Shown: in pieces, positions 62,383 to 63,856 of the stretch
Layout: every line of letters begins with the position of its first letter
Position numbering within the stretch: position 1 is the first letter of the stretch
Origin: Massilia sp. Root335
GTDB lineage: Bacteria > Pseudomonadota > Gammaproteobacteria > Burkholderiales > Burkholderiaceae_D
Reading direction: 5' to 3'
Length of the DNA stretch: 64,000 bases
NCBI RefSeq assembly: GCF_001425685.1
Contig: NZ_LMCY01000008.1
Location: 101,738 to 165,737 of the forward strand
Made by a program: the position numbers and the translations under genes
Notes under the pieces: generated by a model
What the model saw: the letters and a program-made list of their open reading frames with translations, nothing else
The model's database searches: none
What the model was told of the DNA's origin: nothing

Positions 62383-62412
62383 TTGCCAACGTCGATGCAA
62401 TGTTGTTATAGT
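62383..62412 (+). promoter_or_regulatory. Likely promoter of the aroG leader transcript
   Basis: TTGCCA (62383-62388) and TATAGT (62407-62412) are 18 bp apart. The start of the leader peptide frame is 24 nt past the -10. Confidence 0.6.
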
Positions 62413-62435
62413 CAATCGACCATTCAGGAACCCAC

Positions 62436-62504
62436 ATGCGCCACGCCGTTTTCTTTACCTTTTATTTTTGGTTTAGCCATTCCAGCCCAACGGCGGTGGA
62501 GTAG
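62436..62504 (+). CDS. Aromatic-rich leader peptide of the aroG attenuator
   Basis: A 22-codon frame with AGGAA 7 nt before its ATG. It reads MRHAVFFTFYFWFSHSS followed by PTAVE: five Phe, one Tyr and one Trp within eight residues (positions 6-13). This is the pattern of leader peptides such as PheL, where ribosome stalling at scarce aminoacyl-tRNA controls a downstream terminator. The peptide itself probably has no other role. It is too short to be called by length and was found from its position between the promoter and the terminator. Confidence 0.85.
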   Translation: MRHAVFFTFYFWFSHSSPTAVE

Positions 62505-62582
62505 CGGCAGGTTCACGCAGTAACAGAACAGCGTCCGACACAAAAATCCAAAAGACCGCCGAGCTGGCGGTCTTTTTTTTTT
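62491..62582 (+). promoter_or_regulatory. Transcription attenuator (antiterminator/terminator) of aroG
   Basis: The terminator is AAAGACCGCC-GAGCT-GGCGGTCTTT (62551-62575) followed by T residues to 62582. The end of the leader frame contains CGGCGGT (62491-62497), complementary to ACCGCCG (62555-62561) of the terminator's 5' arm, so a competing antiterminator can form. The pairing segment starts 17 nt after the last Phe codon and ends 4 nt before the leader stop codon. A ribosome stalled at the aromatic codons would leave it free, and one at the stop codon would cover it. Confidence 0.82.
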
Positions 62583-62626
62583 ACGGCCCCGAATTTTTAA
62601 TCATCAGATCAGAACGGAGAACAGCA

Positions 62627-63688
62627 ATGCCCCGCACCGACGACCTACGCATCCGCGAAATGAAGGAATTGACGCCGCCCTCGCACCTGATCCGCGAATT
62701 CCCGGTGACGCCGGAGGCCGAGCAGACCGCGTCGCAGGCGCGCCTGGCGCTGCATCGCATCCTGCATGGCCAGGACGATCGCGTGATGGTCGTGATCGGC
62801 CCGTGCTCGATCCACGATCCGAACGCCGCCATGGAATATGCCCGCCGCCTCGTCGAGCAGCGCCACCGCTTCGCCGGCGAGCTGGAAATCGTCATGCGCG
62901 TCTACTTCGAGAAGCCGCGTACGACGGTCGGCTGGAAAGGCATGATCAACGACCCGTACATGGACAACAGCTTCCGCATCAACGACGGCCTGCGCATGGC
63001 GCGCGAGCTGCTGCGCGACATCAATGAGCTGGGCCTGCCGGCCGGCACCGAATTCCTCGACGTGATCAGCCCGCAATACATCGCCGACCTGATCAGCTGG
63101 GGCGCGATCGGGGCCCGCACGACCGAGTCGCAGGTGCACCGCGAACTGGCGTCGGGCCTGTCGTGCCCGGTCGGCTTCAAGAACGGCACGGACGGCAACA
63201 TCAAGATCGCGGCCGATGCGATCAAGGCGGCGTCGCAGCCGCACCACTTCCTGTCCGTGACGAAGGGTGGCCACTCGGCGATCGTGTCGACCGCAGGCAA
63301 CGAGGATTGCCACATCATCCTGCGCGGCGGCAAGGCGCCGAACTATGACGCGGCCAGCGTCGAGGATGCCTGCAAGCAGCTCGCCGCCAACGGTCTCGCG
63401 AGCCGCCTGATGATCGACGCCTCGCACGCCAACAGCAGCAAGAACCCGCAGAACCAGGTGCCCGTGTGCGCCGACATCAGCGCCCAGATCGCGGCGGGCG
63501 ATACGCGCATCGTCGGCGTGATGGTCGAGTCGCACCTCGTCGGCGGCCGCCAGGACCTCGTGCAGGGCAAGGAACTGACGTACGGTCAGTCCGTCACGGA
63601 CGGCTGCATCGACTGGGACACGAGCATCGCCGTGCTGGAAAACCTGGCCGCCGGCGTGCGCGCACGCCGCCTGCGCGACGACGCCTGA
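62627..63688 (+). CDS. aroG: DAHP synthase, class I (first step of the shikimate pathway)
   Basis: Condenses phosphoenolpyruvate and erythrose-4-phosphate to DAHP. The 353-residue protein has 'VIGPCSIHDPNAAMEYA' with the metal Cys, 'GWKGMINDPYMDNSF', 'GARTTESQVHRELASGLSCP', 'GFKNGTDGNI' and 'IDASHANSSKN' as in AroF/G/H. Length fits the type Ialpha enzymes that are inhibited by aromatic amino acids. CGGAG precedes the ATG. It is controlled by the attenuator upstream. The enzyme uses erythrose-4-phosphate from transketolase, also in this window. Confidence 0.96.
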   Translation: MPRTDDLRIREMKELTPPSHLIREFPVTPEAEQTASQARLALHRILHGQDDRVMVVIGPCSIHDPNAAMEYARRLVEQRHRFAGELEIVMRVYFEKPRTTVGWKGMINDPYMDNSFRINDGLRMARELLRDINELGLPAGTEFLDVISPQYIADLISWGAIGARTTESQVHRELASGLSCPVGFKNGTDGNIKIAADAIKAASQPHHFLSVTKGGHSAIVSTAGNEDCHIILRGGKAPNYDAASVEDACKQLAANGLASRLMIDASHANSSKNPQNQVPVCADISAQIAAGDTRIVGVMVESHLVGGRQDLVQGKELTYGQSVTDGCIDWDTSIAVLENLAAGVRARRLRDDA

Positions 63689-63702: not shown

Positions 63703-63856
63703 CGTTTGCGTCACGCGTGGGCACCACGTGCCCACGCGTGACGTTCGCAACGTGTTGGCGTTACGTAAAACAACCGCCGCAGCCCGGTAGGGTGGGCGGC
63801 CTCCGCCCACGCGTGACGTTCGCAACGTGTTGGCGCTACGTAAAAAAACCGCCGCC
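63703..63856. repeat. Dispersed hairpin repeat with 50-bp direct duplication, locus 7
   Basis: CCCACGCGTGACGTTCGCAA, then CGTGTTGGCG and ACGTAAAA, then AACCGCCGC, occurs at 63731-63780 and again at 63806-63855 with two differences. Between them is a GTAGGGTGGGCGGCCTCCGCCCACGCG module, a third arm type. Located between convergent aroG and the partial receptor. Confidence 0.88.

Follow-up and report, generated by a model that had tools for sequence, protein, structure and literature searches.

A probable leader-peptide attenuator upstream of the DAHP synthase gene aroG in Massilia and related bacteria

Background

Among the systems most like the one described here are attenuators of enterobacterial amino acid genes. 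pheL and pheST are attenuators (PMC11802643). The enterobacterial pheL-pheA and pheST leaders share with the aroG leader a short frame with Phe codons, an antiterminator and a terminator, and their logic is identical, but their target genes are others. The trpL attenuator is equal in mechanism, but it contains Trp codons only. When the Rfam models of these elements were applied to the aroG leader, Phe_leader (RF01859, the pheL-pheA kind) gave 24.7 bits (E = 0.083) against a cut-off of 55, and Trp_leader (RF00513) gave 20.6 bits (E = 0.12) against a cut-off of 41.

A leader peptide before a 3-deoxy-7-phosphoheptulonate (DAHP) synthase gene is described for aroR-aroF of Corynebacterium glutamicum, where, as described in PMC11802643, ribosome stalling at the aroR leader, which there has Phe-Tyr-Phe, raises transcription under Phe limitation and Tyr supply has no effect. 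That host is an actinobacterium, in a different phylum from the bacteria considered here, and the likeness is one of description. Unlike aroR, the aroG leaders can have as many as nine aromatics in ten codons, and Trp is often one of them. Control at the RNA level has also been proposed for DAHP synthase genes in proteobacteria. In Vibrio, attenuators are predicted for operons that join a DAHP synthase gene to tyrA (PMC1173090); in Shewanella, aroF and aroH each have a predicted RNA element ahead of them, the one at aroF being called an 'attenuator sensing tyr-tRNA' (PMC2659441). Unlike the leader studied here, these cases are from Gammaproteobacteria and concern other paralogues and operons, and the available portions of those reports give no aromatic leader peptide for them. 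The regulation of aroG by TrpR and TyrR in gammaproteobacteria is treated in a regulon survey (PMC5343134), and 82 short 5'UTRs of Burkholderia cenocepacia have been tabulated, among which aroG may be included (PMC5688073). No betaproteobacterial aroG leader was found in the literature searched, where subscription journals were thinly covered. The attenuation mechanism is classical and a leader-controlled DAHP synthase is already reported in Corynebacterium; the aroG leader would therefore be a new and widespread case within a known mechanism.

Methods

The window is the whole 64,000-nt stretch of the Massilia sp. Root335 genome that was analysed (contig NZ_LMCY01000008.1). Regions upstream of aroG were taken from 80 named genomes, from 29 further places in the genus and from 100 more distant genomes. 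A paralogue (L002) and six same-contig duplicates (L085, L089, L090, L094, L105, L106) were dropped before counting. The near set then held 104 regions, ie the window genome, the 80 named genomes and 23 others of the genus. The far set of 100, one region per genome, held 80 from a 150-genome survey of the order and 20 from a survey of the class; an aroG match was present in 119 of the 150 genomes of the former and in 84 of the 114 of the latter. A leader was scored as detected where an ORF with at least five aromatics in ten codons was followed by a terminator no more than 90 nt after its stop. For the stall analysis a ribosome was placed at each codon of 30 representatives, the distance of its edge from the A-site codon was assumed to be 12, 14 or 16 nt, and the free RNA was folded up to the terminator 3' arm. 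The covariance model was built from 57 sequences.

Results

The aroG of the window encodes a type I DAHP synthase, and the features found at and upstream of the gene are given in Table 1. The original prediction had described a 22-codon frame with five Phe codons, one Tyr and one Trp within residues 6-13, and the codon positions were confirmed (Phe at 6, 7, 9, 11 and 13, Tyr at 10 and Trp at 12, ie seven of the eight). The ribosome binding site claimed for the frame was located as a likely AGGA. The terminator that was said to follow the leader stop by 46 nt is present, at a measured distance of 45 nt, and the proposed complementarity between CGGCGGT and ACCGCCG was located at 62491-62497 and 62555-62561, the second of these being part of the terminator 5' arm. 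The former lies 4 nt before the stop, as had been claimed, and 16 nt, rather than 17 nt, from the last Phe codon. A short ORF which is predicted to be translatable and is rich in codons for products of the pathway is thus followed, ahead of the structural gene, by an intrinsic terminator. The promoter-like site matches at 10 of 12 positions, and since shuffles average 0.4 such sites it is weak taken alone; a comparable TTGCCA...TATAGT is found 5' of the leader in several relatives (L003, L020, L021, L040, L103).

Table 1. Features of the aroG leader region in the window
Feature	Position	Strand	Basis
Promoter-like site, TTGCCA-18-TATAGT, TG 5' of second hexamer	62383..62412	+	sequence
AGGA, likely leader ribosome binding site, 6 nt 5' of leader ATG	62426..62429	+	sequence
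Leader peptide ORF, 22 codons, MRHAVFFTFYFWFSHSSPTAVE; start ATG 62436, stop TAG 62502-62504	62436..62504	+	sequence; conserved in relatives
Aromatic control codons 6-13, F F T F Y F W F	62451..62474	+	sequence
5' arm of predicted 1:2 (protector) hairpin, partner within 62492-62508	62476..62487	+	fold; putative role
Antiterminator 5' segment, CGGCGGTGGA	62491..62500	+	folds, comparison
Antiterminator 3' segment, TCC (62547-62549) and ACCGCCG (62555-62561)	62547..62561	+	folds, comparison
Intrinsic terminator hairpin, 12-pair stem, then T run	62550..62576	+	terminator prediction, fold, pair counting
GGAG, likely aroG ribosome binding site	62616..62619	+	sequence
aroG, DAHP synthase, 353 aa	62627..63688	+	NF006723, 590.5 bits (cut-off 568)

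The RNA from 62419 to 62582 is more stable than its shuffles (z = -3.27), and the 7-nt pairing alone is unremarkable at the window, since 7 of 100 shuffled leader tails give one equally long. When the RNA ends at 62562 the 1:2 hairpin folds and the antiterminator does not, at a stability no better than that of shuffles (z = -1.42). The antiterminator becomes the best fold once 62563-62566, the four bases beyond, have been made. If the window leader is left untranslated the antiterminator probability is 0.01 and the 1:2 hairpin is predicted; across the representatives (L135 set aside) the untranslated state was predicted to be repressed in 20 of 29 and not in the other nine.

Among the 128 loci with a detected leader, 124 have GGCGG after the aromatic run together with CCGCC in the terminator arm, and in 125 the tail of the leader and the arm of the terminator share a contiguous match of at least 6. 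One codon phase predominates for GGCGG, but some families have it in others, which suggests that it is kept as an RNA constraint and not as a peptide constraint. The length of the pairing at a single locus is weak evidence, since five or fewer of 100 shuffles were as long in only 62 of the 128. Swapping the arms was more informative: among 30 representatives, several of which come from a single family, the mean energy of a leader with its own arm was -20.83 kcal/mol, compared with -18.61 kcal/mol for swapped arms (z = -4.53). None of 20000 permutations was as good as the own pairing, and with the invariant GGCGG/CCGCC core omitted 208 of 20000 were.

Pairs were also counted in an alignment of 57 sequences. 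For the terminator 98.9% of cells were paired, and there were 21 double-changed cells against 2.4 in shuffles. For the antiterminator 82.4% were paired against 80.0% in shuffles (1 of 500 shuffles as high), and there were 12 double-changed cells against 6.0 (3 of 500 as high); the number of pairs with a double change (2 versus 2.0) and the number of pair types (5 versus 6.4) were not in excess of shuffles. The arm swaps and the folds support an antiterminator in competition with the terminator for its 5' arm, and pair counting adds modest support. RNAalifold, applied to 32 Oxalobacteraceae-type sequences, returned the terminator and a 4-pair hairpin with the antiterminator absent, which may be expected because antiterminator and terminator share one arm.

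The predicted fold depended on where the ribosome stalled. The antiterminator probability was at least 0.5 for 183 of 207 codons of the aromatic cluster and for 22 of 350 later codons, L135, which is anchored differently, being counted as zero in these totals. The failure of the later stalls arises in part because the ribosome covers the antiterminator segment. The same probability was reached at 109 of 158 codons before the cluster, and as these earlier stalls are also permissive the fold test shows a downstream limit and no upstream limit. With the ribosome edge at +14, the last permissive codon fell between -1 and +3 codons relative to the final aromatic one in 126 of 127 leaders (L135 omitted) and at -4 in the remaining one, and the spreads for edges at +12 and +16 resemble this. 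That the aromatic run ends at the permissive limit is not forced by ribosome coverage. In the window leader the antiterminator probabilities for a stalled ribosome were 0.76 at F6, 0.83 at F7, 0.25 at F9, 0.55 at Y10, 0.92 at F11 and 1.00 at both W12 and F13, so that Phe codon 9 is poorly permissive. In the model a stall at the control codons frees the antiterminator segment and a ribosome at the stop covers it.

The original prediction proposed a comparison of aroG upstream regions from Oxalobacteraceae, and when relatives were compared in this way both the leader frame with its aromatic codons and the segments that pair proved to be kept in close and distant genomes alike. The detector was positive 5' of aroG in 100 of the 104 near regions (77 of the 80 named genomes) and in 28 of the 100 far regions, which were drawn mostly from the tops of the lists with some passed over, and of which one (L113) seems to be the same region as L033; no leader was detected in the other 72. 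The leader was found in Oxalobacteraceae, including Massilia, Janthinobacterium, Duganella, Collimonas and Undibacterium, but it is not confined to that family: of the 32 family codes sampled in the order, 13 are represented among the far-set positives, and the positive genomes also include Burkholderia, Paraburkholderia, Caballeronia and Mycetohabitans. Other orders of the class contributed 20 regions, one of which was positive. The leader peptides themselves have strongly diverged, being MSAKFYFYFFWYLRPLADREG in Burkholderia-type genomes and MNRAYYFSFFFWFPSLPAKGRN, MLRVTPYFFWFWFPKPLAAGRI and MTRRFFFFFYYFPCLLADGTG in distant families.

Several of the exceptions could be examined individually; those of the near set are L033, L062, L052 and L103. 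Leaders are visible in L128 and L177, where they have four aromatics in ten codons and were scored as misses. In two Oxalobacteraceae-type loci, L033 and L062, the leader is absent and the DNA 5' of aroG is unrelated, and therefore either the switch was lost or aroG moved. L052 (Candidatus Burkholderia humilis) retains its aromatic run, but the frame extends past the terminator, so that ribosomes could hold the terminator open. The frame of L103 appears to continue into aroG; a second copy in the same genome, L224, has the usual frame, so the run-on is probably an artefact of the assembly end. The two copies, each aroG with its leader, lie near the two ends of a 5.55 Mb contig (G030, C1) with small differences between them, and they probably reflect a circular assembly whose overlap was left unresolved.

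The covariance model gave 70.3 bits at the aroG leader and no more than 35.5 bits elsewhere in the genome. The next seven matches (L213-L219, 25.2-35.5 bits) were considered as copies of the same element and rejected; they resemble other terminators, and an aromatic-rich short ORF was absent from their three forward frames. In the survey of 150 genomes of the order all 32 matches of at least 40 bits were directly 5' of an aroG, as judged from coordinates compared individually, and 13 of the 32 came from outside the training alignment. Many other places are caught by the model at scores under 40 bits, and matches with E no greater than 0.01 occur in 110 of the 150 genomes; three of these weaker matches sit before aroG (G125, G195, G183). 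The genome has a second DAHP synthase (L002), 51% identical to the aroG product, and upstream of it an aromatic leader with terminator was not seen.

Discussion

The ribosome-controlled attenuation that had been proposed for aroG is supported by the kept leader frame and pairing segments, and the leader is very probably a transcription attenuator of the classical, leader-peptide type. The signal would be a lack of charged Phe- and Tyr-tRNA and, in about half of the leaders, of charged Trp-tRNA. A scarcity of charged tRNA for Phe, Tyr or, in this lineage, Trp should stall the ribosome within codons 6-13, leaving 62491-62500 free to capture 62547-62561. The antiterminator 5' segment, GGCGG with the purines downstream of it, is expected to form a duplex with the terminator 5' arm together with the bases preceding it; the terminator would then be blocked and RNA polymerase would read into aroG. 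Given an ample supply of aromatics, the ribosome would reach the stop codon and cover 62491-62500, the terminator would form and transcription would end early. For this genome, termination should also be favoured by the predicted 1:2 hairpin if the leader is not translated.

The T-runs of terminators belonging to upstream genes do yield spurious aromatic ORFs (L163, L166, L175), and the leader might on that account be taken for a T-rich stretch misread as Phe codons before an ordinary terminator. Those three fail, however, because the detector demands a terminator after the ORF stop. When the 450-nt upstream region was put through 3000 dinucleotide shuffles, an ORF with at least five aromatics in ten codons arose in 96 of them and one with seven in a single shuffle, but the full detector, ORF and terminator together, was never satisfied. 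Of 566 tiles taken from both strands of the window it was positive in one, the aroG leader site, and it was positive in none of 211 reverse-complemented upstream regions. These controls, the conservation of the leader in relatives and the arm-swap result all stand against a chance origin, which was rejected and to which we give a practically negligible probability. It is also conceivable that the RNA is a cis-acting switch for some other signal, be it a metabolite, a protein or an sRNA, and that translation of the ORF merely opens the RNA. The greater conservation of the RNA segments compared with the leader peptide would suit such a switch, but aromatic codons are kept in peptides that have otherwise diverged, they end near the permissive stall limit, the leader precedes a gene of the aromatic pathway, and in 20 loci (19 of aroG and one of trpE) every Rfam family stayed below its cut-off. 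A switch of that kind is consequently judged to be very unlikely, and the leader-peptide attenuator is the reading followed below.

Which of the aromatic amino acids the attenuator reads is less clear. The ten-codon cluster contains Phe in all 128 leaders, Tyr in 120 and Trp in 66; all three occur in 60, Phe and Tyr in 60, Phe and Trp in six and Phe alone in two. Phe is encoded in 114 distinct leaders by TTT 385 times and TTC 140 times, the reverse of the aroG bodies of 77 named loci, where the figures are 82 and 414. A general aromatic shortage, as originally suggested, is plausible as the signal, but the codons are unevenly represented, with Trp in just 66 of the 128 clusters. Phe and Tyr are taken here to be the main signals, and we put at about even the chances that Trp is read too. 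The alternative, that the attenuator in effect senses Phe (and Tyr) and the Trp codon is incidental, seems to us equally balanced between true and false. It is favoured by those same counts, by the Phe-Tyr-Phe leader of Corynebacterium, which according to PMC11802643 answers Phe and not Tyr limitation, and by the separate Trp-rich leader owned by trpE of the same genome; against it, Trp recurs in those 66 leaders, and Trp codon 12 of the window is among the most permissive of the stall sites. A broader proposal is that the leader senses any of the three and has long served, across much of the order, as a main switch at the entrance to the shikimate pathway, its peptide having drifted under retention of the class of codon and of the RNA segments. 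This we regard as tentative and somewhat doubtful; if true, the leader would do the job of the enteric TyrR and TrpR repressors.

The attenuator gives a concrete, testable model for the control, in many betaproteobacteria, of the first step in aromatic amino acid synthesis, in an RNA element that reaches no Rfam cut-off. The natural series of leaders (Phe; Phe and Trp; Phe and Tyr; all three) is well suited to asking which codons the switch reads.

Two further observations concern other parts of this genome. The trpE leader ORF, MFFAKKHIVNPTGAHEAWLWRRWQSWSI (L221:1236-1322, G000 contig C6), has four Trp in ten codons and is followed by a hairpin and a T run; the Rfam Trp_leader model is below its cut-off there, and no such leader was found at pheA or pheS within 560 nt around the match start. 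On the 3' side of aroG an exact duplicate of a 24-nt stretch, at 63737-63760 and 63812-63835, lies ahead of a second terminator-like hairpin. A GTAGGGTGGGC stretch adjoins the two copies, and it recurs beside other terminators in the genome (L213, L214).
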